From: Xestospongia bergquistia
Taxonomy: Eukaryota > Porifera > Demospongiae > Haplosclerida > Petrosiidae
DNA length: 64,000 nt
Assembly: GCA_963965975.1 (NCBI GenBank)
Contig: OZ014423.1
Coordinates: 2,170,001-2,234,000, forward strand
Direction of reading: 5' to 3'
The notes below the pieces were generated by a model that was not told where the DNA came from, made no database searches, and saw only the letters and a list, made by a program, of their open reading frames with translations. Below, in pieces: positions 30,591 to 64,000 of the stretch. Positions within the stretch are counted from its first letter, which is position 1, and every line of letters starts with the position of its first letter. Position numbers and translations under genes: made by a program.

Positions 30591-31400
30591 ATGGCGGACA
30601 ATTCGTTGATGAAAGCTACTGATCTCTACAGAGATTTGGAGGCTGCCTGGTCTAAGAAGGATCTTCAAACTGTAGGACAACTTCTCTCAAAGCTAAAACT
30701 TCATCTTCTCACTCTCTCTTTCCTTCCAACGGGTACCAATGTAGCGGAAATGGATGAGAGACCACTCCTAATTGCTAGAAGCATGTTGGAAATTGGAGCA
30801 TTTTGGAGTCTCGAGTGTCGAGACGTATTCTCCTTTGAACGATACGTAGCTCAATTAAAATCATACTACTTTGATTATGCTAATATATTAAAAGAGTCTG
30901 ATTACAAGTATACAATATTAGGTTTGAACTTGATGCGTCTGTTAGCACAAAACAGACTTGGTGAATTCCATACAGAACTTGAACTATTTCCACCTGACCA
31001 ACTACGTAATGTTTACTTAAAGAAACCTGTTTCATTAGAGCAATTCTTGATGGAAGGAAATTATCACAAGATTTTCTTATCCAAAGAAGACATACCAGAT
31101 CCTTATTATGGTTTATTTGTTAATATCCTCATTGATACCATTCGCGATGAAATTGCTAATTGCACTGAGAAAGCATATTCTCAAATCTCATGCAATGAGG
31201 CAGCACGATTACTAATGATTGACAACTCCAAGGAATTCATGGACTATGCTAGTCGACGAGGATGGCAGCTTAATCCAACTCAAGAAGTATTTCTGTTTGA
31301 GCCTGAGGAAAGAAGACCGGAAAGTAGTGAAATGGTGAAGTCATCATTATTGATATCACAGTGTTTAGGATACGCTCGTGAACTAGAGAAAATTGTATAA
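30591..31400 (+). CDS. PSMD8: 26S proteasome regulatory subunit Rpn12 (PSMD8)
   Basis: An intact 269-codon frame with no intron. Rpn12 is a lid subunit of the 19S regulatory particle of the 26S proteasome. The whole length matches the family: an N-terminal helical repeat part, the YTILGLNLMRLLAQNRLGEFHTELE and YLKKPVSLEQFLMEGNYHKIF segments, then a PCI/CSN8-type part (IRDEIANCTEKAYSQISCNEAARLL) ending in a helix that contributes to lid assembly. The ATG lies in a strong context (AAAGATGGCGG). An AATAAA at 31509-31514 is the probable poly(A) signal. The gene shares its promoter with NOP56 and converges on NOA1. Absence of introns is unusual beside the intron-rich neighbours and could reflect intron loss. 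Confidence 0.97.
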   Translation: MADNSLMKATDLYRDLEAAWSKKDLQTVGQLLSKLKLHLLTLSFLPTGTNVAEMDERPLLIARSMLEIGAFWSLECRDVFSFERYVAQLKSYYFDYANILKESDYKYTILGLNLMRLLAQNRLGEFHTELELFPPDQLRNVYLKKPVSLEQFLMEGNYHKIFLSKEDIPDPYYGLFVNILIDTIRDEIANCTEKAYSQISCNEAARLLMIDNSKEFMDYASRRGWQLNPTQEVFLFEPEERRPESSEMVKSSLLISQCLGYARELEKIV

Positions 31401-31508
31401 TCTAATATCATTATTGTTAAACATCTTGCTTCCAATGATAATAGTTTAATATTTTAATTATTTCTGTAATAAGCATACTAACTAACTTGTCTGATACAAA
31501 ATCATCAA

Positions 31509-31514
31509 AATAAA
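31509..31514 (+). terminator. candidate PSMD8 poly(A) signal
   Basis: AATAAA about 110 bases after the PSMD8 stop codon, 19 bases before the convergent NOA1 stop codon. If it is used, the PSMD8 transcript may overlap the NOA1 3' end. Confidence 0.55.
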
Positions 31515-31532
31515 GCACAAAATAGAAAAATG

Positions 31533-33961
31533 TCACTTTGATCTCGTCAAAGTTTTCTTCCCCCGAAAAACTGTTCTATTCCCTTTTTGTGAACGACGTC
31601 CCCTCTCATTAATAGCATTAGGAAATAGTGATGGTGTCCTTGTATATATTCCTTTTCCTTTGGGAGTGTGGCCTTGTACTTTAATAACTTGTCCCTCTCC
31701 TATAGTGACAGCTATCCATCCTGCACTAGATAGTATGATGTCTCCTAGACATTGTTTCCAACCGATACCAGTTAATTCAAACTCTAGTGATTCCAACTGT
31801 GGAAATTGACTTAAACGATCAGAATCACCCATTGGGATCTAGAGAGTACAATGTAATGTATTAGCATGAAAGTTAACCAAAAATAAAAGCATTGCTATTA
31901 ATTAACAACTAGATGAGTCATTACAGAGATAGATTAGGCTTCACTCAACCCAATACCAACAACAATACTCTACAAATGGGTTCATGTGTAATATGTATGC
32001 ATGTAATAAGGTAACATTATCCATGTACATACTTTCAATAAAGGTTGTCCTAAGTTACGTCGATAGAGTTCATCAGCTTTGTCTGTACGTGTTGTATGTA
32101 AAGGTAGATAAGAGGAAGCAAAGACAGTGAAATAAGCTGAGACAGGACCCTAGATAGGGAGAATACAATCATTATTAACTGTATGTGTCTCCATCTCATT
32201 GTTTGTCCATCCACCCATCAATTAATTCATCCATTTGTTCTATTAACTAACTTCCTTGTAATCTAGTCTTGCTAAACCACCAATAAAAATTGACTGTCCA
32301 GGTTTCAGGATCAAGGTACGAGGTGACAATGGTTTCTTAGGAAGAACTAAATTCAGTTCTTTTGTAGTTAAATGATTAATGAGCTAAAAAAGAATTAAAA
32401 CTTTATCAGTGACCTACAACACTTACACTACTTTGTCTATTACTTCAAGTACTAGAGAGCTCACTTGCATATTATTCACTGCTCCTGGAGTATCACGAAG
32501 CCAGAACCTATTTTGAGGCAAGCCCTCACTCTTTACTTTTTCATATTTCTTTAAACCAATTTCCTCTAGAACATTAGCTACATCGAGCAAGTCCTTTCTA
32601 GGTAAAGAGGTCCTGTCCATTAAAGGAGTGGTCATAGTTGCAGACTTTGTTGTTTTGGAGTCTTCTCCAATATCCTCTTCAAAGAGATTGTTGAACAAAT
32701 ACTCTTCTAGAGACTTCTCTTCTCTCTTTGCTTGAGCTAGCAGCCGCCTCCTCTTACCAATGGATAATAAAGGAAAACTCAATACCCCAAGTGTTGTTCC
32801 AGGCCAATGAGAGATAGTAGGAGCAGGAGCAGGGATTTTACTAATAGTTTTAACATCTCCAGGTTTTGCTCCACACAAAGAATGAAGAAGAAGACTAAAA
32901 AGAGAGGATTTACCAACATTAGTGCAACCTAGAAGATAAACATCCCCTCTGTTACCCCAATCTGTAGTAATAGCATCTGTAAGCTCATCCATACCTCTCT
33001 TAGTTTTTGCACTTACAAAGAACAACTTTGTCACTCTCAAATCAAGAAAGTGTTTTTGAGCTTCACTTAAAATGTGAGTTTCAAGTCGTTTGAGAGCTTT
33101 CCGATTTAAATCAGGTAGAAGATCAACTTTGTTAGCTATGAAGTAAACAGTACTATGAGGATTTATTATTGTATTAAGTGCTGGAATGAAACTTGAAGGA
33201 AAGTCTATAACATCCACTATGCATAAAATAAGAGCTTGTCTGTCTCTCAAACTTGACAAATGTCGTTTATATTCATCTGCTGGTAGAGTCACATCAAGTG
33301 CTGTATTATAATGCTTTAGGTAGAAACAGCGTTGACAAATGGGTGGGTCAATAAAGGAGTTATCAGATGGTTGTCTTGGTGATTCTGAATGCTTAGAGCA
33401 ACTTGAAGTGTTAACATCCAGTGGAGTAACTCCCTGTTGGTTTAAATTTGATTGGAGTTGATGTATTAAGTCATGTAATTTTTTAGTTGGTACATAACCT
33501 TGTGTATTAGGTTGAGTACATTGTAACATTGTACCACATCCATTACACATGATACTACTATTAATGTCAACTGAACTAAACTCATTGACATGGACAATGT
33601 CTGCATCTGGTTTATTATTACTCTCTTTACATTTGTTTACTAATGATGGGTCATCCTCATTATTAGGCAAGTACAATTGATATTTGTTGTCTGCTGATGA
33701 TAATGTCTTCTCATTAGATTCATTATTTGTAAATGATTGAGTGTCTTTACCCTTAGTACATAGTGCTCTCCTTGTGTTCACTACAAAATACTGTCTATTG
33801 AAGGTATATGGTCGAGATGTAGTTGTGGAGACAAAACACCTACCACGTGCTCCATCAAGTGACTTCTGAATGTAAGTTCTACCTAAGAAAGTGAGGAACC
33901 GAGACAAAGACATGACCACGTGTTTCCACAAGGTAGCCAGCCCCGCCCACATGCTTTTCAT
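31533..33961 (-). CDS. NOA1: NOA1, mitochondrial circularly permuted GTPase
   Basis: Four exons: 33961-32429, 32383-32252, 32149-32033, 31838-31533 (695 aa with the first ATG, close to the human length). NOA1 is a mitochondrial GTPase needed for mitochondrial ribosome assembly and respiration. GTPase motifs come in permuted order: NKVD (277-280, G4), then GCTNVGKSS (345-353, P-loop), WPGTT (386-390) and DTPG (490-493, G3). A treble-clef-type zinc site precedes it (C139, C142, C209, C212). The C-terminal part (NLVLPKKPLSPRTLILKPGQSIFIGGLARLDYK and onwards) matches the family. The N-terminus is basic and hydrophobic like a mitochondrial presequence. Met17 (ATG at 33913-33911) is a serious alternative start, because a CACGTG box ends 4 bases upstream of it. 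The PDCD11 stop is only 46 bp upstream on the same strand. Confidence 0.95.
33917..33922 (-). promoter_or_regulatory. CACGTG E-box at NOA1 5' end
   Basis: A palindromic CACGTG 4 bases upstream of the second in-frame ATG of NOA1. A further CACGTG lies at 33844-33849 inside the presequence coding region. If the promoter sits here, translation must start at Met17. Confidence 0.45.
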
Positions 33962-34007
33962 TTTATATCAAAAAATGGCGTTAATAAATGACATTTCATA
34001 AACATAA

Positions 34008-37000
34008 TTAAATACTCTCCAAAGAGCCTGTTCTAGCATTAACATAAGCCTTTGCTTTATCTCTAACAGTTGCCATTTGTGCAGGAGAACCATACATCTT
34101 TTCAAACTCCATGTATCGCTTGAAAAGAAATTTCATTTTCTTAACTGAGACTTTGAGGTTAATGGCTCGTTCAAATATTTCTCTGAAACAAAAACAGTAA
34201 TATATTCAAATAAGTCTGTTTATACACATTGTAAATTAAATAACACTGTCTTTAATACTGCAACATCATTATTGGATTATAACATGGGGCATCCACTATT
34301 TTCCCTTTTCTATCGAGTTTCTTACCTAACTCTGTCTGTCTGCCCTTTCTTTATCATCATATCAAGATACACAGACCACAGGTCAACTCTTCGAGGATAG
34401 CACGACAACAAGCTCTCAAACATAGTACAACCTCGTTCTATTTCTCCATACTTAAATTCATATTGAGCAAACTTTGATATGACATCAATATCTAAACAAA
34501 AGAAGATAGCAATTAGTATTGTAAATATAACAATAGTTATTTATTACGTTGTTTCTTAGTCAGACTTTTTAAACTTCTCTGTATTAGACCTCGAGCTACA
34601 TCAACTCGACCATGTTCCATCAAGTAGAGTCCATATCTAGTCCAGACTTGAACTTGATTACTGAACTTCTTAGTAATTGTATTATAAAGTTGATCAGCCA
34701 ACTATCAACAAGATAATATAAAATGACAAGCACACAATAAGTGTTGCTAGTATTAGTAACTATAGACTTACATCTAATTTCTTTGAGTTTACATAGATAT
34801 CAGCTAATTTGTAATATACAGAAAGTGGTTCATTTTGTTGGATTGCTCTTTGGAAGACTTTCATGAGACTCTCGTGTGTACCATAAAGATTTTCCAGATT
34901 CATAAGACCCACCCACAAATTTAATTTCTCTTGTTCCTCTCTTTGGGAGTATGGACAGATAGGTAATGTTAATGGATATATAAAACACATACCTAAAAGA
35001 GATGGTAGTCAGTCCTCTTTCTGCTATTGTCCTTGCTTTGTCAACTTCAGCAGTATGTAAATAAAAGGCCATGTATTGGAGCCATAGAGCTGAACTGAAT
35101 GAGACATAATATAGATAATAATTGACTATGTTTATTCTACCTGTTTGGATTAGCTACCAACATTCTGTCAAAGTCATCTGCAGATTCTGGTATTCTTGAA
35201 ATATCAAGTAACTCATGTTCTTTCTAAAACACAAAATACAAACACGATATCAAGTTATCACAGAAAATCTACAATACCTTATATAGTCGGAGTTCCTCAG
35301 CTTTTTTGGCTGCTTTCTTTTGTCTTCTTGTTTTCTTTCCACTAATCATCTGAAAAAATTAGTTTTAATGACAATATTCAGAATTAATACACATATTAAT
35401 GTACAATCTAGATATTAATGTCAGATAGCATAGTTAGAGAGACTAGCTTCTTACTTCTTCTTCTTCTTGGTCATCCATTTCACTGTCACTACTCTGTGTT
35501 AGTAATGAACTATATGTAGTAACATTCCAGTTAAATCCTCCTTGAACTGGTAAAGTTGGCAATGACTCCTCTTCAATTACTTCTTCCTTCTTCTTTTTTG
35601 ATTTCTTAGTAGATGTCTTTGTCTCTTTTCTCTTCTTTGGTTTAGGTTCCTCAGTATCAACTATCATTACATTGTCCTCAACAGTTTCTACATCTTCTTC
35701 CATAGACTCCATAACATTTTCTAATTCAGCACTGTCTTCTTCATCTTCAGAGCTAATATATATAATATATAATACACATAACGTACATTCTATACCTAGA
35801 GTCTTCAGATGAGCTGACTCTCATTAGTTTTCTTCGTACACGTTCTTTTTTTGTTTTCTTCCAAGTTTCTTCTCTCTGTCTTTCTTTCTCCGCCGCAGCA
35901 GGATCAATGTCAGAGAGTTTAAGTGACAACTCCACTTGACCTTTTTCTTTGTCAATTCTAGAGACATAAGTTTAACTTTGCTAGTCAAATTTAATAATTA
36001 ACTTACGATAACACTTTAGTTCTTACTAACTCTCCTTCATTTACACTAGACTGGTAATTCTGGATAAACCGGTCTGATATGTTAGCTATCATTACACGAC
36101 CGACTACATTGTGTCCTAACTTTATAAATACACCCACAGAACTAACAGCCTTAACATAGCCTCTTAAGATCTCTCCCTTTTCTAAATCCTCAATACTTAA
36201 TATTTCTCGATCAGGTTGAGAATCTTGTGCAATTTTTGGTAGACATTGTGGAGTCTCTCCAAGATGAGAATGTCGAAGTGAAAGGACAACTTTGGTTGCT
36301 GTAATTTCAAGTACATGGAAACTGCGTGTGTGTGTGTGCGTGAGAGAGAGAGATAGAGAGAGAGAGAGAGTACAACCAAATACACACATATAGAGCTATG
36401 TACCTATAACTTTCTCCAATTTTAAAGTATTGAAGTGGATTAGCAAAAAAATGATCTGATATATTTGTCACATCAACAATTCCAGGAAGTGGGAATGGTA
36501 ACTCCACCCTTAATCCTTGAGACAATACCTTATCAATTTTACCTTCTACAGTTGTACCAATTGACAAAGTGGGCGGGGTTCCTAAAGGAATCCCAAATTA
36601 ATGTCATAAATACATGTCAAGTAAGTACCTAGTAATGATCCCACATATTGATGTGACCATTTCCTTTTTGTATCACCTGCTATTCTGCTTTCCCCAAGAG
36701 TACATGATATTACTTGACCAACTCGATAATGTGACTTCAATTTTTTGATGTGTTGACTGCACCCCTCAGGAGTTAGAAGTGCAGGGATAATTACATTGAC
36801 ATAAGGTGTCACACCAACTAAAAGATTACTTGATGTTACCTAATACATAAGAGAACACTCATTTACGAACCAATAAATTATGTCAAAATTCGTTGGTGTA
36901 ACTAAAGATTGGGTGGGACAATACTCCCTTCTCTTACCTCTCTGACCACACCTACAATTTTGTCACTAATATTAGTCTTCATATTCAATATCTCATCAAT

Positions 37001-40000
37001 ACTATCTTCAGTGAGTGTATTATCATCCAATAAACTACAATAATATAATACATTATATAATACAAGCATATATATGTACCTCTCTTTAGTAGTAAGCTCC
37101 AAATGGACTGAACCAGGTCTAATAGCTAGTCTGCAAGTAAAATATACATGTATTATACATGTACAATACATGTATTATACATGTATAATACATGTATAAT
37201 ACATGCACAATACATGTATTATACATGTATAATACATGCACAATACATGTATTATACATGTATAATACATGCACAATACATGTACATGTATAATACATGA
37301 CATGTAAGTCGAATATTAGAGGTTAAAGGAATTGTATTGCAGTATAAACAACAAGAATAATAGCACCAGAATATATTCCATTTACTATTGCATTATCCTC
37401 ACTGGGTAAATGGACTACACCAGCAGTTATCTGGTAGTACTTTATATCATAGTACAATTCCTTTTAATTATCTACTAATAAATATTAGGTGTATAAAACA
37501 GAACATGTCCATACGTGTATTAGAGGGTAAATTACCTAGGATTGTTCTGTCTAAATTTTAATACTTTAGCTCTTATAGTATCCCCATTCTGATAACATGA
37601 CAATGGGAATGAACCCTGAAATAAAGAGTAAAATTAGTTGTTACCATATTTTGTGTACCTCTGTCATGTCATCTGTTACCATGGTAGCATGAACTCTCCC
37701 CTTCCAAGAACCATAAGAGACATTGATCTGATTATCAAGGATCTCACTAACTCTGAACAGTAAGACAAGATCATCAACAATTGAACAGCACATGTAATCA
37801 ATGTAATACATATACATGTACTACATGTAATACATATACATGTACTACATTGATTACACATATACTCATGTACAGTATATACTAGTGACTGCTTACATGA
37901 CTTCAATGATGTCTCCAATAGCAACTTTTAGTTGCTTAGCAAAGTCTCCTGATTCTCCTAGTATTACTATAGGAGGACCAGTTGTAGTACCAAGATATAG
38001 TGAGGATGAACTTTAAATGAGAGAGAGAGAGAGAGAATCATATATAATCATACATTATCTAACACTTACCTAATGACAGTGCCAGTGGTTCGATATCCAG
38101 GTTTTAGATACTTTAACTGAGAAGGGATAACACCCCACTGCCCCTGTAATTAAAACATTAATTCAACTCATTACTGCTGTACTATAGATCACTAGACTTA
38201 CCGAGTCAAACAGTCCATAAGCTATAGTACTACCTACAAGAGAGCTAGCAGTACAGATGAGGTAATAAGGAGTGACATGTTCTACTGTTAAAGATACAGA
38301 ATGACCTGCTTGGACCTATAAAAAACATTAGGAATAATCATAGAACATTACATATACTACTCATGTTGTACTATGCTACCTTAAACTGAGTTTGATATTG
38401 TGATATCCTTTTGGTTTTCTTTTTCAATTTCTTTGTCTTATCTTTCCTCCCATCATTAGCTGACACTAGCTTTGAATTCAATGTTACCCAATACTGACTA
38501 GTATTAACATCAATGTCTAATATACAACAAGTCACATGATCTCCCTCAGATAAACCCTCTTCTGTTGCCATGGAAACATAAGCTTTTGCAACTACACCAT
38601 CATCAAGTAGAAGGTGTAAAACATCACTTGAGACAGATGTGATCTGGTATAGTCAGTAATAGTGACAACATAATATAATATAACCTACTTCAGCAGTGAC
38701 TAAGGTGCCTGGTTGATGGATGGGTGTGTCCTTGGAGCTAGAGAGACTATCTGGTGTCAAGTATATTATTGTGCATTTATATGTGTCGCTTACCATTTAA
38801 CAATAGTTGGTCTCTCTCTTGAAGGAATGATAAGAAATGTTGCATTAACATATCCTGAGCATTCTCTGATGAGTGAATGAGAAATACTCGAAGATCAGAT
38901 GAACGAAGGCTAAGAAGAAAACGTTCTTTCTCCATATTAATTTCTTGAACCTAAGAGATAGATAGACATTATGGTCTGATCTTGTAGCTATTACCTTAGC
39001 AAAGACAGTCTGCATATCTCGGTAAACTCCAGTAGCTTCTGACAAAAATTCATCACTGAGGAAACGAATAGGAGACAGACCAGTTAGTCCATTGGGAAAC
39101 TCCACAAAACACCCATATGAAAATGTTCGTTTAATAACACCAGGGAATATCATACCAACCTAGTAATAAATGTCACATATGCATACATACACATGTCCAT
39201 CAACTCACCTTTAGTTCAGTAAATGAGTTAGGATAACTGTTATCATTTACAGCTTGTATCAATACTTTCTTTAAAGTACCTATAGCAGGATAAGATGGTA
39301 GTCTAGTACTAAGAATAAGAACATCTTTCAAAATGTAGGTCTGTCCATTCTCAGTGCCCTTAGCTAACATGTGTCCATAGAATGACAAGAGTTCTGAACA
39401 ATGTATAGGATAGTCAGATAAAAGGTCAAGAGGTAAAAACACTAATTCCCCAGTTATTGGATGACGTAATGATAGTCCATTATTAGCAACACCTGTAATC
39501 TCTAAGTCAATTATTTCACCAGCTCTAACATTATTCTCAACAAGAGAGGAGTCATTGGTGGGTGTGGTTAAAGTAGGATGATCCACTCGAAGAGACAGTG
39601 TTAACTTATTATTCTCATTGTCATTCTTCAATACAATACAGCGCACTATCTGACCAGTTTTAAATGAAGACTGTGGATCTAAAATGATTTGGGTGGAGCT
39701 AGAACTTAGTTCCATTTTAGGTACAAATCCAACCACATTGTTATAGAATCGTACTAAGATCCCATGATCTTGTATTACAATGATCTCTCCATCATGTACA
39801 TCACCAGGTTTGGCAGATGTTTTGTCTGTTAGTGGAGGAAGCTCTGATGATACCAAACTCTTCTTGCGTGTTAACAGGATAAACCTGTCTGACAGATTTA
39901 CAGTCAACACACGGCATTTTACTTTGTCTCCTTCAGCAAGTTTGGTTCGAGCACGCTTCACTTTGGCATCAGCCAGCTGAGCATCAGGACAAAATCCATC

Positions 40001-42173
40001 AAAATGATCACTCAAACGAATGAAGACGCCTTTCTCTGTGAGTTTAGCTATTTCACCCTCCACAATAACACCAGGTTTGACATCAGATATTTTCATGAAT
40101 GGTTTCTCCAACACAGAGTCTTGCAGACTGACAATAACAAACCCATCAATCAAGTTGAACTGGACAATACGACAAGAATGATGGCTTCCAACACTATGTC
40201 TCTTCTGTACCTTTTCAATCTTTTCATCATAAATGAATTTCATAGGGGCATACCCAAATGCACCATTACCTAGCTCTAATATGACACCATTACGAGAATC
40301 GACGTGAACAATTCTCACATCATGAAATATATCACCAATTTCCATTCCTTTAAACTGGTGTCCTATACCAGTCACTATCTCTCTTTGAAGTGTAAGACCA
40401 GCCTTCTTATTCAACACATCGACCCATAATATTCTTGCTTTGAGTTTCTTATTCACTGGAAACTTATCTGTGGAAAATTCCTTGTTTGATAAATGACGAA
40501 AGTGTACAGTACCCTCAAATCCTCCAAGATAATTAACTACTAATGCAGTGGGTGTGACTTGTTTGACGGTAGCATTAACAAGTAAACCAGGTAGTAGAGA
40601 TGAGAGAGGTAAGAAAGATTCAGATGAGAGAAGACTACTATACACAATGGTAGGATTGATAGATATTGGTACTGATCTAGCATCAACACCAGACAATGTA
40701 CAGCAACTCATTACTTGTCCGATATGAAGCCGTTTACCCTCACAATGGAGTTTAGTGAATTCAGATGCATTCTTCTTGAGGAGGAAACCATTTCTTTTAG
40801 ATATACCAAAGTCAATAATATAGCCGTGATCTTCAATACTCTGAACACAACCAGACAGTACCTACACAATTACAAGTATAATTGTTATGATGTAGATGAT
40901 ATTTTGTAGAATCCAGTTACTCACTAGGTTAGGGTATCTGGTGATTTTAGTAATCTTTTATAATATCAGAGAATTCATTGTAGTAAGTACTTAAAGGCTG
41001 GCACTCTAATACACTATAATAAACTGTATTTTATTCATGAAGGTTCATGTGTAATCATTGAGTGTTGGTCAAGATTTGCAAAAAGCTCAACACAAAATAT
41101 CACCTACATGCTTTCTCACATTAAGTGAGTGGGTGGATAAGCGTAACATGTACATGTTACTGTACATACTTGACATTTGAAATACATTAGATCGCATACC
41201 ATATTTGGTCGTAGGTTCTTTGCTACAATATGACTATTAACAAGACGTGGGTTAATTGTTAACTGGGCATGTCTTCTCTTGGTATCCATATTTAACACAA
41301 AACAAGGAAGGATTTGACCAACATGAAAAAGTCGAGATAGCTCAGTAAGAGGTTTGTCTTCATCTCTTTGCTCATCCTGATCGACTTGTTGCTGAGCTAA
41401 GTTTGCCAAGGGGTCTGAAATATCACCAATATTAACAGACCCTGTCATATTAAATGGCAGTGACATCACTAATCTATAAGACTGGATCTCACGAACAGCA
41501 GCTAACACTAACAATCCTTCAACAAGATGCTAGAAATAAAAGACACACAAATATTACTACAAATGCATCATTACTAGGTTTATACAACAGTGCCCCTTTA
41601 CCAATGACATATATGTACTATTATTCAAAATCATTACTATACAAATCAATGTACCTTTGAACTAAGGTAGTCCAATACTTTCATTGTCTTATATGATGAT
41701 TCTATGTCTTCATTGGTCTGTCTCTTTCCTTTCTTAGTTGAAGTATTTACAATGTCTTCCTCCTCCTCCTCATCTTCAACTGAAGACTAGGAGAGAGAAT
41801 GATATTATATGTCACTCTATCACTTAGTCTATTCTATTTTATTTGAAGGTCAATGTACCTTTCCAAAAAGGATATCCTGCTGGGCTTGATGACGTAGTCT
41901 CCGTCTTTCAAGAGGTGTGACTACTTCTTCTCCTCCTCGAGGAAAATCTTCTTCTACACGTATTGTAGTAGCTACTGAACTCCTAAAATAGAATATTATT
42001 AACTTATTTGAAGTGAAAGATTACATTTATCAAAATCCTTACTTCTCCCAGAGCTCAGATAGAGCTGTTTCTTTGTCTTCTTGAGCATTTACTTCAATCT
42101 TTTGTTCATCTTTCTTCCTTTTCTTATCCCCTTTAGAATGAGGATCATTTTGCAGAGGTCTTTTCTTTCCCAT
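34008..42173 (-). CDS. PDCD11: PDCD11/RRP5, S1-repeat and HAT-repeat rRNA processing factor
   Basis: Twenty-eight exons, phases closing to 1908 aa (human about 1871): 42173-42043, 41982-41859, 41786-41655, 41529-41200, 40861-39209, 39159-38995, 38950-38794, 38750-38689, 38643-38380, 38315-38202, 38143-38070, 38010-37897, 37752-37659, 37615-37536, 37130-37080, 37034-36938, 36839-36629, 36581-36404, 36321-36007, 35957-35796, 35752-35455, 35349-35278, 35223-35141, 35094-34993, 34940-34772, 34701-34548, 34491-34326, 34182-34008. RRP5 is a nucleolar scaffold needed for early pre-rRNA cleavages leading to both 18S and 5.8S/25-28S rRNA. A basic N-terminus (MGKKRP, then FPRGGEE) leads into many S1 RNA-binding repeats (about 110-1500; for example [28 protein letters not shown]). 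A lysine/acidic linker follows (about 1500-1630), then HAT/Suf repeats ([37 protein letters not shown]..., [21 protein letters not shown]..., [12 protein letters not shown]). Most introns are only 45-60 bp. Confidence 0.96.
36322..36372. repeat. (GT)n-(GA)n tract in a PDCD11 intron
   Basis: Alternating GT then GA dinucleotides immediately at the acceptor of a short PDCD11 intron. On the coding strand it forms the polypyrimidine-like (TC)/(AC) tract before the AG at 36323-36322. Confidence 0.85.
37140..37303. repeat. tandem ACATGTATAATACATG-type palindromic repeat
   Basis: Repeated copies of ATACATGTAT and its variants TACATGCACAA and TACATGTATTA, about seven units. It is self-complementary over the whole block and lies in the PDCD11 intron 37131-37535. 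Confidence 0.9.
37411..37467 (+). repeat. dispersed repeat, copy 1
   Basis: The segment ACTACACCAGCAGTTATCTG onwards to CAATTCCTTTTAA is about 80% identical to 52143-52204, including CAGCAGTTATCTGGT, TTTATA, CAT, GTACAA and TCC landmarks. No coding capacity. It is probably a fragment of an interspersed element. Confidence 0.6.
37793..37858. repeat. inverted repeat in a PDCD11 intron
   Basis: TGTAATCAATGTA (37793-37805) and TACATTGATTACA (37846-37858) are exact reverse complements. They enclose TACATATACATGTACTACATG-type palindromes. The intron RNA could form a long hairpin. Confidence 0.85.
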
Positions 42174-42275
42174 GTTGTCACTAGAACCACGTGTAGATAA
42201 TTATAGGCGTGGCACAGATCAAAGGTAAGTTATGAATATTCCTAACACTTCAGTATATTTTCGTTTCTTGACTCA
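42174..42275. promoter_or_regulatory. divergent promoter of PDCD11 and the orphan AKAP-like gene
   Basis: 102 bp separate the two divergent start codons. A CACGTG E-box at 42188-42193 lies 15 bases upstream of the PDCD11 ATG. GGCGTGGC at about 42207-42214 resembles a GC/GT box. Bidirectional function is inferred from the geometry. Confidence 0.65.
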
Positions 42276-42710
42276 ATGGCACGTTCTCTTCTTGATAAAG
42301 AGAAGCTCTGTCCAGTCATAGGTACTTATGAACCTAATGCATTTCTGCTATCGTTGAGAGAAGACGATGACTTGAGCTCTGTTCATAGTTATGGGATCCA
42401 CTGTGTGCCACATATTGGTAAGGAAGATAAAGACAGAAAGATATGTTCAAAAAATGGATGGAAGAAATATACAAATAAATATAATGAATGAACATATGGA
42501 AAACATAATAGACAAATGATGCAGACTATTTATGTATCATTTATAAAATTTGGCCAATTTCCTTATTTTTAACACTAAATGACTTGGTTTGTGTACTTCA
42601 TTTATGATGACTCCATTATTGTCAACTAAAGGCATATTTGTACACTTTGCCTGCTATTTAGTGTTATAGTTCAATTTTTTGCTTAGAAATCAAGAAGAGG
42701 TAAAGATATC

Positions 42711-42750
<40 letters not shown>

Positions 42751-45738
42751 TAATGACAATAATAATAACGATAATAATAATAATAATAGTAATAAGTTTC
42801 ATTGAAAGTTTGTTTGGATAAGAATAACTACAACTAATAAAATTAGTAACATTGTCAGAAGCTAATCTAGCCAGACCCTGACTTTCTAAAAACATTTGAG
42901 TACACTGATGTAAATGTTGTATTCAGTTGACTGAAGAACCAAGTCTTACCAGAAAAGACTACAAATTATCTTAGTGTAAAAACAAATTCACTAAGCATTC
43001 ATTAAGTAGGCAATGATATAGGAGGATAAATGGAGTAAGAGAATACTTCATAAACCATATTCCTGGAAATATTTACAGTAGGATTAGCATAGTGTGCTAA
43101 CATGGCAACACAATAGAATAGTATCAGTTACAACATGTATGATTTTGTCAGTACATGTTATCTGTGATGATATCACGTACGATACCTATACTACAACAGC
43201 TCAGTATTAACAAGTGTCATAGTCATATATTCAGATGGATGGTCTCATTCAAAATCTGAGTCATTTTGTTATTATGACCATTTTGTGCTTTGTATGATAT
43301 TTTAAGGACAACATTCCTTTTTATTGTTGGTCACAACATTTATTCCTTTGAGAGATACAGCTTCTGTTGAACTTCTTTCTACTTAACACTCCATGTTATG
43401 ATGTCTAATTGTCTAGGTGTTTATGGATCAAACTATTCATTGGCTTTACCAATGGTGTTGCTCTCTCTACCTCCATCTTTGTGGTAAGTTTGTGTGTCCA
43501 ATTATGCTACTCTTCTCTCTCTCTCTCTCTCTCATACACGCACACAGCTTTCTCAGACAGCTTCCACCTGATATTCTCAATGCACTAGACATCAAATTGG
43601 ATGAGCTCTACACTGATGTTCTGATCAAAACGGCTAGTGAACTAGTTCAAAGAGTTCTTAAATCAGCTATTACACGAATACAATCTCCTCCACTTACCAA
43701 ACCAAGAGAGAGAAGACATGGAACACTTGACAGAAGCTATGTTAATCATCTGATAGTGAGAGAACACTTTCAAAATACTGAAGAGTATCGTACAAAATCA
43801 GAGTCTGTATCTAGTGATGATTTTGAAGAGGAAGATAACAGGTGCATAGAAACCACAGTTATAGAAATGGAAGCTGTCCCTATGGACTATGAAGATTTAC
43901 TACGTTATACTGCTAAGAAGTTAGTTCGAAAAGTGATTCACTTAGCTTGTCAAAGATGGGAGTCTTTTGATAGACGTTCATCAATTGAACTAGACTATCT
44001 TGTAGCCCGTACAAAACGAATGAAGATTGACTCACCTTCACCATCTCCTTCTCCTTCAGTTCCCACACCACCTCCATCCCCAAATCAAAACCATACTAAG
44101 CAGGATCTTAACGAGGACAATAATTTAGGGGCTTGGTCACAGGCAGGAGACAGTGGTATTCAATTAATACCCAGTGATCTATTGTCATCGAATCCATCAG
44201 GGCTGTTTTCACCTGGTAGTAGTTCAGAAGATGATTTGTTAATGTCACAAAAATTAGGCAAGAAAAGACAGCGTAGTGGTTCTCATGATGCTACCTCTTT
44301 GAAGGATCTTGAATTATTTCATGATAAATATCGTCAACATTCTTGTCCAGAACCTATTATTAGTTTAAAGAACCAACACGAGTCTAATTCAACAGAGTCT
44401 TCTCCTTTGTTAACAGTTAGTGGGTCCTTAACTTCCTTTTGTCGTGAGAGAAGATCAATGACAGACTTGATAATAAATATGAGGAAAATGTCCATTATGG
44501 AAGTTGAAGATGAAGAAGATGAAGATGAAGAAGGAGACTATTTAGTATTAGAAGCTGTCACTAAGCCACTCCATACTAATGAAGACATCATTGAAAACAA
44601 ACAAGTCAAATTTTCTTCACGCAAGATGCCATCATTTCAAACAATTTCTAGTCCTATTCTAGAAGATACTGAGACTGATGCCTGTATTGAAGGACCAATA
44701 CCCATTCCACTTACACATCCTGATTTTCATGTCATTCCAAAACTGGACTATTATGTTATAATTCATAGCTATCCTCCACCTGGTCTATGTCAGAAGTTCT
44801 TATGTCACAATACGAATGAAATAAATCTGTTATTTCACTGTTGGTTGTATAAAGATATACCTGTAGACCCCACCCTCTCTGTATCGGAACAAGTCTGTAT
44901 GGGCCTGTTTGAACCTGAAGGAGTATTCCCAATTCACTTAGACTTACAAGATGGAGGTGTACCTTTTTATTACTTAGAATCTAGGTGAGATTATTACAAT
45001 AGGAAAGACAGTATTGGGTAGCCAGACTAAGCTATATTATGACTACAAACATATATATATATATTGTCTGAGTATTGCATGAATAGTCACTAGGATTGTG
45101 TAATGGAAACAAGTATAATACAATAGAGGCAAAGCTCAATGCTATAAAATGCTTATACACATATTATATACAGAATACAAGTAGAATCTAGCCTGTATCT
45201 AGTGTGTTCCAGGATCAGCTTTCTCTCTTAACAGACCTCATAAATGCTATTGGTATTTTAGCCTAGAGTTAATCCCTTTAATTTGTTAATATATCTTATT
45301 CAGTGTTTACAGACTCATATATTGCATTGATGTACAATGTTTGCTTAAATTATAATAACATAATACTAACTTATCATATTGTCAACATTGGGAGTTTGTT
45401 TTATTACAAGTTTGTGATAAATTGAATTAACTGCCCCTCCTCCTTCCTTTAGAACTGTTTGTATTCATAATTGTTGTTTTTCTCCTGAGAATGCTCAGCT
45501 TCAGCTTCAAGAGGGAGTCACATGGAGTCACTCCTTCTTTTCTGCTGCAAGTTATGGTGATTGTAAAGTACTGGCATTTCATGTTGTACCTGTCTCTAAA
45601 GAAGTAGAACAAACTATTAGTTATCAATTGAGTCAATGTGGTAGTACATTAAGAGAATTGTTGAATAGTCTTAGTATTTTGTGTCCAAATTTGAGTCAGA
45701 AATTATATTATTTATTATGGCCTCTTGTCAACAATTAG
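42276..45738 (+). CDS. unrecognised 643-aa protein with two AKAP-like helices
   Basis: Four exons: 42276-42417, 43417-43483, 43548-44984, 45453-45738 (643 aa; phases close). I do not recognise the family. Residues 92-115 (around TASELVQRVLKSAITRIQ) and 186-207 (around LRYTAKKLVRKVIHLACQRW) are amphipathic helices. Both fit A-x2-L-V-x2-V-[LI]-x2-A, the hydrophobic spacing of PKA-RII-binding helices in A-kinase anchoring proteins. The middle is low-complexity: serine/proline (PSPSPSPSVPTPPPSP) and acidic (EVEDEEDEDEEGDY) stretches with basic phosphosite-like patches (RRSM, RRSSIEL). The last 200 residues (from DFHVIPKLDYYVIIHSYPPPG to the stop) look like a folded beta-rich domain with conserved-looking aromatic and Cys residues. 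No signal peptide or membrane segment. It shares a promoter region with PDCD11. Confidence 0.8.
42710..42788. repeat. (ATA/TAA)n microsatellite
   Basis: About 26 ATA/TAA triplets with a TAATGACAATAATAATAACG interruption, in the first intron of the orphan gene. Confidence 0.95.
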
Positions 45739-45966
45739 TGTGTTGTTTTGAAATTAAAATTCTTTTTATAATAATTATTTTTCTCCGTATGTCAAAAATC
45801 ATCTTAATTAACTTTAAATTAATTATTAAGGGGTGTGGTAATTCTTCCCAAAAACAAGAAGACAAACCGCCTTTGTACAGAATATAAGTCCAAACTGGAG
45901 TTTAACGCCATTAAACCGTCTGTTGACCTCTCTCAAGAACAAGAGAGAGGAGAAGAGGAATGGAAG

Positions 45967-48900
45967 ATGCCGAGCTTCGTAGACAAAAGTCTACCAAAAG
46001 AGACTCTAGAATGTATGGACCAATTAAGACGAAACGAAGAACTCTGTGACGTTGAGTTAGTCGTGGATAATCAATGTTTTAGAGCACATAGAGTGGTTCT
46101 AGCTGCCTCGAGTATGTACTTTAGAGCCATGTTCTGTCGCCAAATGGCCGAGAGTGGACAGAGAAGGATAGTTATTCAAGGTGTTGAAGCTGATGCCCTA
46201 GCTGCTCTCATCAAATTCGCTTATACTTGTGTATTGGAAATAAACGAAGAGAATGCTCAAAGTCTTTTAGCAGCTTCAAATTTTCTTCAAATGTTACATG
46301 CTCGAGGAGCTTGCTGCCATTTTCTCAAAGATCGTCTAGATATCGTTAACTGTCTTGATGTAGCTGACTTTGCCGAGTTCCAATCATGTGAAGACCTTTT
46401 GGAAGCTGCTCTGACTTACAGTAGACGCCATTTCACTGAGGTTTCACAAAGCGAGCGTTTTATACAAATATCTTATGCTCGTATCAAGCACTTTCTCTCA
46501 AGCAACGACCTCCATTTAACTGACGGTGAAGAACCTGTTTTCAATGCTTTAGTACGCTGGGTAAAATATAATCCTTCTGAACGAACCAATCACTTTTATG
46601 AACTATTAGATCATGTTAAATTACCTCTGCTGGGTCAAGAGTTTTTTGCTGTCGAAGTGGCAGCTAATGCTTTGGTTAGTAGCAATGAACAATGTATGAA
46701 ATTAATACGAGAAGCTGCCCGAGCTCTTTATAATGACTCCTGTCCCAATAACTTGTCCCACTTGAGTCGTCTACCTACTCAAATCCCAATGAAATGGTGG
46801 CCGAGGGAGACACTACGAGCAGGAGAAGTAATTCATATATTAGGTAAACTATTGATATGTCAATGAGTTATGCATTAGATTGTAGACATGATAAAAGCCT
46901 CATACACTTACTTTGTATATATAACTAGACATTGTATAGTAGTCTGATCTGTTGATCTGAGACTAGAGTTAAAGTATACTATTATGTATCAGACTGTGGT
47001 AGTAGTAGAAGTGTGGGATGATTGTATTACAGTAACTTATTTCCAGTGTGAATACAAACTCTCTAAATAGTCTCATTTTTTGTCTTGTGCGGTAGAGTAA
47101 GCATTGACAGTTCTAGATTACCATGTGATTATTGTGATAAGTGTAATGAGAGTTGTACCTTGTAATATTAGAACATTGTTCTCTTCATTTTGTGTCCCTT
47201 TTGACTATATCTCCAAAGTATATAAGTACTGATGATGGAGTCCTTCAATTTGTTCCATTTCTTAGTAAAGTCTAAAGTCCACTATTAGATCATCAATGTT
47301 TACTACTATATATATTATATTATATTATTATATTCATTGTTGGTATATTGTGATAGTATTTGTGTTGACTAGCCTAGATATTAGGTATATATGTAATTTG
47401 TATTATTGTCTGGTACACGTTGTTGGGAACTTTGTGTAGTATGAGTTAAGCAAAATATTATTGTAATTACATACCACACATGGGTCATTGCTCTTACTGT
47501 GTTCAATGATTGACTCTCTCTCTTTCTCTCTCTCTAAACTAGGTGGTGTATCAGAGCATGAGACACTAGGTAATGTTGAATGTTATGATCCTGAGACCAA
47601 CCGTTGGGTAGTAGACCTTATACCACAAATGAATTATAGGAGAAGTGGAGTAGGTGAGAATAAATTAGGAAACAATGTGGGAATGTGGGATGTTGACTAC
47701 TAACTATTCCTGTGATTATTAACTTGTGTACTAGGTGTGGCTGTTCTGCAAGGTCTACTGTTTGCCATAGGAGGTTATCTAGAGGGTAAAACGAGCACTG
47801 ATGCTGTAGAATGTTATAATCCTCGTACTATGAGGTAAGCTCATCATATCATATGACACCACCATGACATCATATTGTGTCATCACATCATTCATGTGAC
47901 ACGGACATTAGTCACATGATTATCACATAATTATGTACTCTCTTCTCGTATCATTAGATGGACTCAGGTATCAAGTATGCTAACAGCTCGTATGAATTTA
48001 GGTGTAGGTGCTATTAAAGACATGAGAGATGCTGTAACAGGAGCTACATTTAGTGCTATATACGCTATTGGAGGTTACAGTGGCAAATCTATTCTAGGTA
48101 CTGCTGAAAAATATGATATGCAAACAGATACTTGGACGGATATAGCACCAATGAAAACCCCAAGACGTAATGTTGGTAAGAACAAATTGACACAAGCCCA
48201 TATCAAAGGAGAAAGTATACATTATAAACTTATAGTTTAATAATTATGTGTATATTAACAACATGTTAACAACTTAAAATATCATAGCTGTAGTCTGCCT
48301 TATAGAAAACATAATTTAGTGATATCTCTACATTGAGAATGTCAACTAATACACTAAACTATTAGGATACAATAAGTAGTCTGCTCTCTGAATATAGACG
48401 AAGAAATATCGTTAATTGCTTTGTGTTGTAGGTGTGGCTGTTATTGATAATCTTCTCTATGCTGTGGGTGGTAGTAATCGTGATGATGGTACTCGCTCAA
48501 ACTTGAACTCGATGGAACGTTACAATCCTGATCGAGATGAGTGGGAGGAGATGCCTCCAATGCATCGTAGTCGTGGTGCAGCTAGTGTCACTGCATTGGG
48601 TGGATGTCTATATGCTGTTGGTGGATATGACTCGGGTAAGTAGAATCAGATGTAATCTGTGTGGTGTTAATAGAAACTGACATCAGTAGTGATTTAGTAT
48701 CACACAAGAGTTGGTTGTTTTATTGAGTTGGTGCATCATCAACGAGTTAACTGTTTGTTGTGTGGAATCAATAGTACACACACTTCTTAGTATAATCCTT
48801 TCTCTCTTTTTTCAGGTCAGTGGTTATGTGAGGTAGAACGATTTGATCCACGTACCAATCAATGGTCTATGATAGCTCCAATGCATCACAGTAGAACTGG

Positions 48901-49171
48901 AGTAGCTGTGACTGCCCTCAAAGGTATAGTGAAATACACCTACGTACGTAAGTATGTCGTGTCTCTCTCATTAGGCGAAGTCTATGCTATTGGTGGTTAC
49001 AATGGAGTTAAAACAGTAGATGTAGTTGAGAAATTTGATCCCGAGGAAGGTACCTGGAAAGAAGTAGCTCCTCTTACATATGGTCGAAGTGTACCTGGCA
49101 TTGCTGTGGCATATTTATGGCCTGTACTATCAACTATGAGAAAATTTTGGGAGAATGAATCACAATTATGA
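45967..49171 (+). CDS. kelch-like protein (BTB-BACK-kelch), CUL3 adaptor
   Basis: Seven exons: 45967-46843, 47543-47653, 47735-47834, 47958-48175, 48432-48635, 48816-48923, 48975-49171 (604 aa). KLHL proteins recruit substrates to CUL3-RBX1 ubiquitin ligases. BTB domain (about 10-125: ELCDVELVVDNQCFRAHRVVLAASSMYFRAMF), BACK (about 130-240, NHFYELLDHVKLPLLGQEF), then six kelch blades (about 290-590), each with the GG doublet and Y...W pair (AIGGY, AVGGS, AVGGY). The frame is open upstream of the chosen ATG, but MPSFVDKSLPKETLE is the first Met and fits KLHL N-termini. Closest in style to KLHL17/18/20; I cannot assign an ortholog. The 51-bp intron 48924-48974 has no stop in frame. Poly(A) signal AATAAA at 49379-49384. 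Confidence 0.93.
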
Positions 49172-59087: not shown

Positions 59088-62000
59088 ATGTCTTTTACTA
59101 ATTTTGTACAGTTGGACATTAATGGGACTCGTATACCAAAGCTTTTCTTTCCGCAATTTACTGCAAATTTCCGTTTATTATTGGATCAAAAATCCCCCAA
59201 ATCCCTAAAGTGTTGTTTCCTGACTATTGTTATGGCTGCGCTTACATTTGGAATAGAGCTTTTAGAGAAATATTCAACTAAATTATACGATACCTTAATA
59301 TTCGATGATGATGTTTTGCACTCTCTTATCGGTAAATTTAACAGAAAGGAGGTTATTGGTGATGAAGAAACTAAGTCTCTACTACGTTTGGCTGAGCAAG
59401 AGCCACTAAAAGGTGCTACTAAGCTTTTGCAGGAATTAAAAATTGCTGTAAAGAGCTCGAGAGAAAAGTTTGCAATAATTTCTAAAACATTTAATGGCGA
59501 GAAAGCCTTACAACCAATTGCTAAAGGAATAAAAAAGTGTTTGGTATGTTAAGTTAATTATTTGTTATTAATTAATTTATGTTAATAGAACAAAAAAGTA
59601 TCAGCTGCTATTACTGAAAATGGATGTATCAATGAAATATTAGAAATGGTTAAAAGTGGAGCAGACCCAAATTCTATTAGTGTAAATATATTAATCATTG
59701 TGTGGTTTATATGTTAATACTAGTACTGAATGGGAGTCATACTTTAAGGTGACATATTGAGTTATAAAGTCATTTTGTAGTCAATATCAGCAGACATTGA
59801 CCAGATTTTTTCTTCTTGGATCACCAGTCAATAGGTTTCTTTTGACCTAGCTGTGTAACTGACTTTATAAACAGCTAAATAACTTTATATATAGAGCCTC
59901 TAAGTCTAATACTCTCAAGCAAACACTTATTTCTTCAGTAGATGATAAATTATGACTGTTATTGTACATGGTGCAATACATTGACCTAAATTATGTGATG
60001 TGGTTGGTTAATTACACTTAATTAAGAACATTCTGATTACACTATTGATTGCATTTCATTTCAATAATGTTTATGTATTCCATAATTGGAAATTAATAAT
60101 TATTATAGTAATCATTAAACTTTGCAAGAATTTAGGATTAAAGTATGGCACTGTTCATTATTGCTAGCAATTTCACCCACTTCATGTGTCAAATTTGAAG
60201 TATTTATATTAAATGTTGTTATATATTTAAACAGTCTGGAAAAGGTGCACTCCATTATGCTGCAGAGAATGGTCATTGTAGCAGTGTTCAGATATTATTA
60301 GATCTTGGAGCTGAAGTTGATACTAAAGACAAGGTTCATCATTTTTTATTGAAAATAACTTGATTATTGTCTATATTTAGAATGGCAGAACTTCACTTCA
60401 TTATGCTGTTGATCGTGGTCACAATGATGTTATTATAGTATTGTTAGAGTATAAGGCTAATGTAAATATTACTGATATTGTAAGTTCACTCCCTCACATT
60501 AAATTTTATGTTACTTTGAATTATAGGATGATATGACTGTTCTTCATATTGCTGCATACAATAATGATGTTGATGTTATTGAAACCATTTTAAGGCAAAG
60601 AGTTGATATGAATATTACACTAGCAAACAAAGTTAGCATACTATTACATGTCAATCAATAATTTGTAATCAATAGCATGGAAAAACAGCTTTACACATAG
60701 CTGCTACTAGAGGAAATTTGCAAGCTGTTGAAAAGTTGGTTTCATTCAATTCGAGATGTGTTAATATAGTTAATAAGGTGGTAAGTAGATATTTGTTATC
60801 TAATGATGATATAGATATTTCAGAATGGTAAAACTGCTTTGCACGATGCTTCAAAGATTGGTAATAATGACATTGTTAAAACATTAAGTCGCTGTGAATT
60901 TGCAAACATTAATTTAAGAAATGAGGTAGGATTAAGCAAAAATGGATAATATCATGTTTATACCTTGCTATAGAAAGGGAGAACTACTCTACATTATGCT
61001 GCTGCTAATGGTCATAGTGATGTTGTTCAGATCCTTTTAACTCACGGAATAGACACAGAGATCAAAGATGAAGTAATCAGTCTTGCAACTTTACTGTAAC
61101 CAATTTCTCTTATATAGACTGGAAAGACTGCTTTTGATTATGCTGTGAAGAAAAATCATACTGCTGTTCTTCAATTATTGTCAGATCATAAATCTCATGT
61201 AAGCATCTATATTAAAAATAAGTATATATTTAAATTTTAAGAAAGTTTTGTCAATGTTTATATTTGTTTAGACCAATCAAAAAATCCACAAAGCACTAGG
61301 AGACGAGAATATGAAAGTTGAATTATTAGATGATGAAACCAAAGAGCCAAGGGTACATGAATATAGCAACCGAATACAAAATGGGATAGAGCTGAAAGTA
61401 CAACAACTAGAGATGATAAAAATGGTTGAAGACGAGCTAGGTTATTTGAAATCACGCTGCTTTACTTTGGAAAGGGAAAAGGAAGATCTTACAAAGCAAC
61501 TATATACACAGAGAGAAATAAGAACGAAATCATTTATGGAGATAGACAACTTAAAGAACCAAATAAAAGAAGAGCAACGAAAGTTAGAAAACAGTTATCA
61601 ACATCTAATAGAAGAGAAAGGAAAAAATAGATGTGAGTAGTTTATATGTGTGTATAATTTTATCATAACAACAGATCTTGAGGCAAGGATTCATAAATTA
61701 GAGGAAGAACATAAAATCAATATTAGTCTGACATCTAGACAAGAGCTAAATGACCTTCAAAACTCAAGACAGAGAAAAGAAGTACAAACTGACATAGTCC
61801 ATAGTAAAGGTAAATAAAGTATAGTAATACTCACTATGGTTATTTCTCTGTAGAATATGAAAGCAACATTATTTGGCGAAAACTAGCCATTGCTATTGTG
61901 TTGATTATCTTTTTATTGGAAGTTGGTGCTCTTTGGGTATATCATTCAAGTTGGAGTTGGGATGAGAGTCATTCCATCTGTAAGTCTACATTAATACCAA

Positions 62001-63333
62001 GTACTATATGATATATTATTACTTCAAATATTATCTCTGTTATAGTTTCAAATACTAATACTCCAATGATGTCATCTGTTAAAGTACAAATAGCAGATCA
62101 AAATTGTGAACAGGTGGTACAGAAGGATTTTGACATTCCTCAACAAACAATGACATCATGGCTTACAGCAGATATAACTGTTTGTATTGGTCCTTCTATA
62201 GAGCCTCACCACACAGCTAATATAAAGACATTACAACTGAAAATATGGCATAGTGTTAGATCTAAGAGTCAATCCTATTATTTATACGAGTAAGATAAAA
62301 ACAATGTTATGTGTTATGTAACACTATGGACTTATCTAGCATCTATTCAGAAACCAACACTGCACTGAAGATTATAGGAAGCTATTTACAAAGAAAGACA
62401 GCCAGTGGAAATTATGAATGGGAATTGTGGCTTTTACTACACACTGAAGACCCGTTAGAAAAAGTAAAAAATAAACTTATGTTAAACATGTTAAAAATTT
62501 TCTACAGTTGTTAGAAAACACTGGATTTAATAGGTCTGTATGGCAGAAAGAATATTCTTTTCCCATTTATTTTGAAAGCAAAATGATTACTATAGACATA
62601 AGTGGATATAAGAATATAGAATGGAAAATTAAAGAATTCAGAGGCCCCCTAAAAGTAAGCCAACAATCAGTGACTATCTAAATTTATTTTCATTTCAGCA
62701 TCATATTGATGATATACTTAGAAAGCAACTTGTATTCAGTGTATGGATACTTGTTGCATGGACAGGGAATTCAACACCAAGATCAACTATTCTTAAAGTA
62801 CCTATTATTGGGACAATACAACCAAAGGAAATATCTTTTATGTTGGACATCAAACCAGGTATATTACTGCTATTATTGATATATTATTATTCAACATGTA
62901 ACTAGATGTACCTAGTCAAAGATCTGATGTTAGTACAAATAAAGGCAATGATGGTGGTAATGGTGTTACCATGCTATTTGTGATTAATGATATTGATGCA
63001 TTTTTTTTAGGATTTATTCCTGATGATTCATCACAACTGCTCCTTCATCTTCATAGTATTTCAGAATTTATACTATTCTGTGAGCATCTTGGTCTTGGTT
63101 CAAATGAGTGTCGTAAAATTGAAAAAGAAAGATCAGGAGATTTAGGAACTCAGAAAAGTGATATGTTATGGAAATGGCGAGAGAGAGGCAGGCACACATG
63201 GAGAGACTTTATTAAGCCATTTGCACTACTAGTCAAGTGTTCTAAGGCTAATGAATTGGCTAAGAAGTATCACGTTACATTTAATAGTAATGATGAAGTT
63301 GTAAAGATGTGTCCTAAAATTAATGATGAATAA
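59088..63333 (+). CDS. CARD-like / ankyrin / coiled-coil / TM / death-like protein
   Basis: Eighteen exons: 59088-59543, 59589-59681, 60235-60333, 60381-60479, 60527-60631, 60676-60780, 60824-60925, 60974-61072, 61118-61198, 61272-61632, 61675-61809, 61854-61979, 62046-62289, 62340-62463, 62508-62654, 62699-62858, 62906-62956, 63011-63333 (969 aa; phases close). Met49 (59232) is an equally likely start because the fold begins there. Residues 50-135 look like a CARD (LLEKYSTKLYDTLIFDDDVL, EVIGDEETKSLL, KGATKLLQELK). Eight ankyrin-repeat units follow (153-413; GKxALHYAAxNGH type), then a coiled coil (about 430-575), a membrane segment (589-608, LAIAIVLIIFLLEVGALWVY), about 230 residues of unknown beta-rich sequence, and a death-like domain (about 868-955: HLGLGSNECRKIEKE, MLWKWRERGRHTWRDFIKPF). 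Probably an innate-immune or cell-death signalling protein; not a known named gene to me. Confidence 0.85.
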
Positions 63334-64000
63334 GCTTTGGCTTTTTTTGCTGTTATACCTTTCTATGCTGCTTTTATTTATATAGTGGTTATTTGTACAG
63401 CTTTTATGAGTATATGTGATGTGCACATGTTTTGTTGTTTAACTAACCACTGACATTTAATTCTTTATATGTGTACCTGCTGTTTTATTTGCTGTCATTT
63501 TAACTTTGTTGCTATCTACTTTTATTTACTACATTTTTTATTGCTTACTAGTTTTTATTATAATTATTGCTTTAGTTTTGTTTGTTTGCTGCTCCCATCA
63601 TATGTCTCTTACTATTCCTTTCTTAATTTGAGTTATATTTGCTATTATATTAATTTGCTGCCATTTCACTTACTATTTTTTTTTATGATTTGTGTATCCA
63701 TTTGCTAATTGCTATTGTATACATTTGCTGCCATTTCACTTACCATTCATTTCATAATTTGTGCTACTTCCTATTGTATCCATTTGCTAATTGCTATTGT
63801 ATACATTTGCTGCCATTTCACTTACCATTCATTTCATAATTTGTGCTACTTCCTATTGTATCCATTTGCTAATTGCTATTGTATACATTTGCTGCCATTT
63901 CATTTACCATTCATTTCATAATTTGTACAACTTGCTATTGTATTTTAAACTTGTGCTACTTGCAATTGTATAGGCATCATAATCTTGAAATCTTGATGGT
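63334..64000. other. 3' flank of the CARD-ankyrin gene
   Basis: The 3' UTR and flank of the preceding gene, T-rich on the plus strand. It is dominated from about 63.66 kb by the 82-bp tandem repeat listed separately. The open frames here are products of the repeat. Confidence 0.5.
63660..63946. repeat. 82-bp tandem repeat, about 3.5 copies
   Basis: The phrase CATTTGCTAATTGCTATTGT begins at 63699, 63781 and 63863, an exact 82-base period, with CATTTGCTGCCATTTCACTT inside each unit. A decayed partial unit precedes it (about 63650-63698), and looser TTTGCTGTCATTTT-like sequence lies further left. Confidence 0.93.

Follow-up and report, generated by a model that had tools for sequence, protein, structure and literature searches.

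A predicted sponge protein with ankyrin repeats, a membrane segment, an eroded ZU5, a UPA-like part and a death domain

The window analysed here, a 64,000-nucleotide stretch of the Xestospongia bergquistia genome, contains a predicted gene whose product would run in the order N-terminal region–ankyrin repeats–coiled-coil-like linker–membrane segment–eroded ZU5–UPA-like–death domain. At roughly even confidence, we read its sequence as that of a membrane-tethered, uncleavable offshoot of a PIDD/NLRP1-like death-domain family, which may act in signalling as a platform or as a decoy. The ZU5–UPA-like block had gone unnoticed in a preliminary description of the same DNA, and it ties the gene to PIDD, NLRP1, UNC5 and ankyrins.

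Gene model and its checks

Inspection of the junctions, made on the sequence only, gave a predicted gene at 59088–63333 with 18 exons, 968 codons open throughout and 17 clean GT-AG introns (Table 1), so that the single continuous frame proposed in the preliminary description stands as a model. All introns measure 42–73 nt except intron 2, and the exon 14 acceptor at 62340 keeps the reading frame intact. It is very unlikely that the model fuses two adjacent genes, because the one gap outside this range splits the ankyrin array itself, and because the junction between the coiled-coil-like region and the membrane exon, QTDI..KE/Y, recurs with its phase in the paralogs L026 and L028 (L027 has KE/C). 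The paralogs support the position at which exon 18 starts, since tblastn matches begin at residue 862 in 10 of the 15 paralog loci (at 864 in two and later in three). At the other end, the context of an alternative in-frame ATG at 59232 is by eye better than that at 59088, and the first 48 residues are therefore doubtful.

The paralog models came from our own exon-chaining script, which was partly trained and also tuned on this gene. It recovered 9 of the 18 exons at first, 7 at an intron penalty of 6 and 14 exactly at penalties of 8 and 10. With the final penalty of 8, its output departs from the model by extending exon 1 upstream, adding one extra 5′ exon, making exon 6 three bases longer and reading through exons 17–18. 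In several of these models (e.g. L024, L025, L030, L034 and L038) the far 5′ end probably takes in neighbouring genes.

The source assembly comprises 146.5 Mb in 21 contigs, and the window occupies C13:2170001-2234000. An 82-bp minisatellite (3.1 copies) lies at window positions 63693–63943, 360 bp 3′ of the stop codon. By eye, we take the neighbours at 30552–49171 to be an Rpn12-like proteasome subunit, a NOA1-like GTPase, an RRP5-like S1 protein and a BTB-kelch protein.

Table 1. Features of the predicted gene (positions in the window)
Feature	Position	Strand	Remark
Exon 1, N-terminal region, aa 1–152; in-frame start alternative 59232; helical by low-confidence prediction	59088..59543	+	CARD unproven
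Exons 2–9, ankyrin repeats, one per exon, all phase 0, aa 153–412	59589..61198	+	
Exons 10–11, charged coiled-coil-like region, aa 413–577, ends in RKEVQTDIVHSKE	61272..61809	+	heptad signal weak
Exon 12, hydrophobic membrane segment, about aa 587–607	61854..61979	+	preceding junction and phase common to L026, L028
Exons 13–14, shortened ZU5-like region without HFS; extra 50-nt intron 62290–62339; UPA-like part begins in exon 14	62046..62463	+	
Exons 15–16, UPA-like region	62508..62858	+	hhalign to paralogs, intron phases; tblastn E 0.002 for last piece
Exon 17, linker	62906..62956	+	
Exon 18, death domain and stop codon	63011..63333	+	

The C-terminal domain is a death domain

Searches with single sequences gave an uneven picture of the C-terminal domain. 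Exon 18 alone scored 20.7 bits against Pfam Death (PF00531), below the cut-off of 22.6; at E 1 the same model matched 7 of the 15 family members (best 1e-6) and left 8 without a match, and the C-terminal domain of L031 alone gave no Pfam row at E 10. Fold and profile evidence outweigh these missing matches. A 15-row family profile searched against the PDB matched the Fas death domain at 1e-4 and that of PIDD at 0.0018 (3 of the 13 rows of this search are not death domains), the structure model of exon 18 is confident and has a six-helix death fold, and core columns are conserved. The domain is a death domain, and the C-terminal block that had been described as death-domain-like is real.

This part of the protein matches 15 other places in the same genome. 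By death-domain identity its nearest relatives are L024 (57%), whose own domain has an early stop, and L025 (55%). In a death-domain tree the window copy falls in no supported group and sits on a long branch (0.59). L036, a fragment with a stop, was omitted from the family alignment; it lies near coding sequence that looks retroelement-like by eye. A search of genome contigs for bacterial relatives of the death domain gave 8 pattern matches, none of which was confirmed.

A ZU5–UPA-like block shared with in-genome paralogs

Close paralogs have the layout [variable N-terminus]–membrane segment–ZU5–UPA-like–death domain. In their spliced models, a large exon of about 185 codons (ZU5) and two short exons lie between the hydrophobic segment and the death domain, and the two short ones take the position that UPA has in PIDD, UNC5 and ankyrins. 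Pfam UPA (PF17217) matched neither the window protein nor four relatives, nor anything genome-wide, where no control matched either, and a PDB search with the ZU5–UPA alignment (A2) returned only chance-like matches. We write "UPA-like" because Pfam and the PDB gave no confirmation, and the identity of this part is drawn from its place between ZU5 and the death domain.

By sequence comparison, the stretch between the membrane segment and the death domain of the window protein is homologous to this module. Residues 605–862 matched the paralog ZU5–UPA alignment with an hhalign E of 3.8e-10, and the UPA-like part alone scored 70.8 against a maximum of 20.6 in 60 shuffles (control run on aa 607–861). 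Taken on its own, the ZU5-like part gave a weak match (E 0.0029, hhalign probability 11, score 24.7 against a maximum of 18.8 in 60 shuffles), and the window protein has no Pfam ZU5 match. Its ZU5 region spans 368 nt, compared with 554 nt in L026, and has an extra 50-nt intron. The five intron phases from the TM/ZU5 to the linker/death-domain junction are 1, 0, 0, 1, 1 in the window gene, L026, L028, L031 and L034, and the first two are different in L038. Six paralog models entered this comparison, five of them full (four agreeing at all five junctions), and L025 has only the linker junctions.

The ZU5 domain is abundant in this genome: at E 0.1, exon-level matches to Pfam ZU5 number at least 126, of which four are not over the cut-off. 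The ZU5 exon of L026 matches at least 149 places at E 0.001, some of which are also Pfam ZU5 matches. Taken singly, L039 and L046 are over the Pfam cut-off, L043 is just short of it, and L044, L026 and L031 do not pass. The best PDB match of a wider ZU5 profile (alignment A4) was the ZU5 of ZO-1 (E 0.0038); unrelated chains came next, from 0.045 upwards. ZU5 exons are often clustered, for instance at C6:8382601-8641633 and C1:13.2-17.6 Mb.

Loss of the putative cut site

The autocleavage motif is HFS in PIDD and SFS in CARD8/NLRP1 (PMC3210808). HFS, the motif of PIDD and Nup98, is present in 9 of the 10 close paralogs in which a full ZU5 can be recognised (L026–L031, L034, L035 and L038), a count that includes near-copies (L026–L028; L029/L030; L034/L035) and hence not only independent genes; the tenth, L044, has HFC. 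L037 was left out of this count, its ZU5 being recognised by no search, and reads LKFS by eye. Among the wider ZU5 exons, F-S stands at the cut column in 8 of 9 (L047 has HSC), with the full HFS only in L041. At the ZU5/UPA border the window protein has neither HFS nor SFS; its only F-S or F-C pairs are at 620, 804 and 884, all away from this border. Judged by its sequence, the window copy is probably uncleavable there.

A self-cleaving PIDD/NLRP1-like receptor that still cuts, at another residue, seems quite improbable: F-S is widely kept in the family and the UPA-like part is retained, but the border lacks F-S and F-C, and compared with L026 the ZU5 exons have lost 186 nt. Decay could just as well explain the missing cut site. 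That the gene is drifting to a pseudogene or non-functional copy, with loss of the ZU5 core as part of that decay, is an unlikely alternative. The shortened ZU5 and the long death-domain branch fit it, and erosion recurs in the family, since ZU5 is truncated in L032 and L033, which retain only its end, and goes unmatched in L024 and L025, which lie on the same contig as the window gene and gave no ZU5–UPA match at E 1. Against it stand the 968 open codons with their 17 clean introns, the confident death-domain model and the conserved core columns.

The N-terminal half

The front of the protein bore out the preliminary description in part. Its ankyrin units are certain, as tandem 33-residue repeats that match Pfam Ank_2 at E 7e-49 and number eight by eye. 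Of the coiled coil, a charged, coiled-coil-like region can be kept, its heptad signal being weak. The CARD-like fold assigned to the N-terminus found no backing: with E values up to 10 allowed, searches of Pfam, the PDB and the genome matched nothing except exon 1 itself, exon 1 is absent among the 16 in-genome CARD (PF00619) matches at E 0.01, and its single-sequence structure model has a pLDDT of 44. Against seven hand-picked helical candidate domains, a mixed and poorly aligned set, exon 1 reached an hhalign probability of 0.07, with 96 of 200 shuffles as good; its pairwise scores against four of the seven were equalled by 150 to 561 of 1000 shuffles. BLASTP of exon 1 against L045 gave E 0.60.

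At E 0.01, tblastn matched neither the ankyrin nor the exon-1 part at any of the 15 paralog loci, each taken as 10 kb, and the ankyrin front is therefore peculiar to the window copy among those loci; many other ankyrin genes lie elsewhere in the genome. The earlier statement that no family is known with the full domain order thus needs qualifying, since in-genome paralogs share the block from the membrane exon onward; it holds in that none found at the 15 loci shares the ankyrin front.

An LC8-like QTD motif, present once in the window protein and three or four times in L026–L028, was considered as a dimeriser. We set this reading aside because the link between the motif and LC8 is a presumed one and a single copy could be due to chance.

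Membrane segment and topology

A strong hydrophobic segment lies between the ankyrins and the ZU5-like region, which supports as a membrane segment the 20-residue helix described earlier. With the single pass predicted from the sequence, the membrane would separate the ankyrins from the death domain, which counts against the reading of the protein as a membrane-tethered signalling scaffold. An N-inside orientation, with cytosolic ankyrins and with ZU5, UPA and death domain in the lumen or outside, where they would serve extracellular or lumenal contacts, appears rather improbable. Lys/Arg counts over 20 residues on either side of the segment lean this way in 6 of the 9 proteins counted (window 3 before/0 after, L038 5/0, L025 3/0, L035 4/2, L034 3/2, L031 2/1), whereas those of L026–L028 lean the opposite way (1 before, 2 after), and AMRGR(I/T)KL directly after the segment in L029 and L030 also argues against it. 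Because positive-inside charges are mixed across the family, we make no topology call. N-glycosylation sequons after the segment are not enriched (14 against 15.4 expected by shuffling, summed over six proteins and leaving out the near-duplicates L028 and L035); L031 alone has 5 against 3.0 expected. A lumenal death domain argued from glycosylation sites was accordingly rejected. Known death domains act in the cytosol, which also speaks against a lumenal one.

Variants within the family

Other loci combine the same parts differently. L025:6833-7836 is compact, consisting of a death domain (Pfam 2e-11), a membrane segment, a linker and a second death domain. L031:3059-8320 joins a Roc-like/COR-A region to a death-like block, membrane segment, ZU5, UPA-like part and death domain; its COR-A match (1.1e-8) is just over the cut-off, Roc is weak, and the death-like block ahead of the membrane segment matches Pfam Death at 0.039, below the cut-off. 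L026–L028 have helical units in tandem that by eye resemble death folds (Pfam gave no significant match for those in L026), and in L046 ankyrin sequence precedes ZU5, with no membrane segment seen by eye within 2.6 kb. The ZU5–UPA-like genes at L039:127-597 (minus strand) and L045:1975-2310 end in a helical, perhaps CARD-like domain instead of a death domain; the CARD match is 0.096 for the L039 end domain, and L045 has none. At L030:5812-6043, tandem QFGPETKD-like repeats are seen by eye immediately before the membrane segment.

Relation to known systems

PIDD1 has the domains LRR-ZU5-ZU5-UPA-death domain. The window protein resembles it in the death domain and the ZU5/UPA-like block before it, and its close paralogs keep HFS; it differs by having ankyrins and not LRRs (no LRR Pfam row was found), a membrane segment and one eroded ZU5 without HFS. 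UNC5 receptors carry an Ig and TSP ectodomain before the TM, and ankyrin proteins (ANK1-3) are not known to have a membrane segment.

In NLRP1 and CARD8, FIIND (ZU5-UPA) is followed by a CARD (PMC3210808, PMC7794386). The likeness lies in a sensor-like N-terminus, a ZU5–UPA-like block and a C-terminal death fold, and the difference in that the window copy has a death domain instead of the CARD, a membrane segment and no cut site. UNC5 carries ZU5-UPA-DD (PMC3210808), and the window protein shares with it a membrane segment followed by ZU5, UPA-like part and death domain, with ankyrins and a coiled-coil-like linker on the N-terminal side. Ankyrin has ZU5-ZU5-UPA-DD (title of PDB 4D8O); the window copy differs in its eight repeats by eye, the membrane segment between them and ZU5, and the single eroded ZU5. 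A true ankyrin or UNC5 relative, linking the membrane to the cytoskeleton or to guidance cues, would account for ankyrins combined with ZU5/UPA/death-domain parts and for a membrane segment ahead of ZU5 as in UNC5. This identity is extremely unlikely, as there are eight repeats, the membrane segment comes between ankyrins and ZU5, neither Ig nor TSP appears among the 12 Pfam rows at E 10, and the closest relatives located are paralogs from the same genome whose N-termini differ.

Amphimedon shows an expansion of death-like/TRADD-N proteins with ankyrins, and another TRADD-N clade has fusions to FIIND and to a UPA-Zu5 module (PMC8195603). Our gene is similar as part of a sponge death-fold expansion with ankyrins and other variable parts. 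The Amphimedon set, as presented in that source, is defined by TRADD-N, whereas PF20694 matched nothing in the present genome at E 0.01 and the window protein has no TRADD-N row; the Pfam model may not cover the NCOA6-type clade. Putative membrane-bound NLRs and NACHT-Zu5 are described from sponges (PMC12909245), and ZU5 with NACHT from cnidarians (PMC8260672). A full-text literature search found no description of the present domain order in the titles and abstract openings of the matches listed; relatives may figure in the figures or supplements of PMC8195603.

Proposed mechanism and significance

We infer a cut-and-hold mechanism for the full paralogs, by analogy: their ZU5 would cut itself as in PIDD, NLRP1 and CARD8, and the UPA–death-domain fragment would be held and later released. 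With no cut expected at that site in the window copy, its UPA–death-domain part would stay covalently attached to the membrane. Clustering through ankyrin-bound partners or through the linker may be the trigger, and the clustered protein would then either seed a death-domain assembly at the membrane where it sits or, as a decoy, damp the cleavable paralogs. In CARD8 and NLRP1, UPA lowers the concentration needed for CARD filament assembly (PMC7794386). The lineage-specific innate-immune or cell-death scaffold suggested earlier remains reasonable as a scaffold with a real death domain; its CARD end is unsupported, and a role in immunity or death is inference.

A broader generalisation can be put forward tentatively, as one that may well prove wrong. 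Interchangeable N-termini (ankyrins, a Roc-COR GTPase with a death-like block, tandem helical units) might be joined through a membrane segment to a self-cleaving ZU5–UPA–death-domain cassette, forming a receptor class. The ZU5 exon and the linker exon each begin in phase 1, so dropping the cassette would keep the frame; such phase 1 to phase 1 losses might have produced uncleavable DD-TM-DD and ANK-TM-UPA-DD forms, which would serve as built-in brakes or as constitutive platforms and would place death folds on either side of the membrane.

Self-cleavage of ZU5–UPA is the switch behind the NLRP1/CARD8 inflammasomes and PIDD. If our reading is true, one animal genome would hold ZU5 in more than 100 exons, with one clade placed behind a membrane segment. 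That clade would include cleavable-looking and uncleavable forms, natural variants with which one could test how the switch arose and what follows when the cut is lost.
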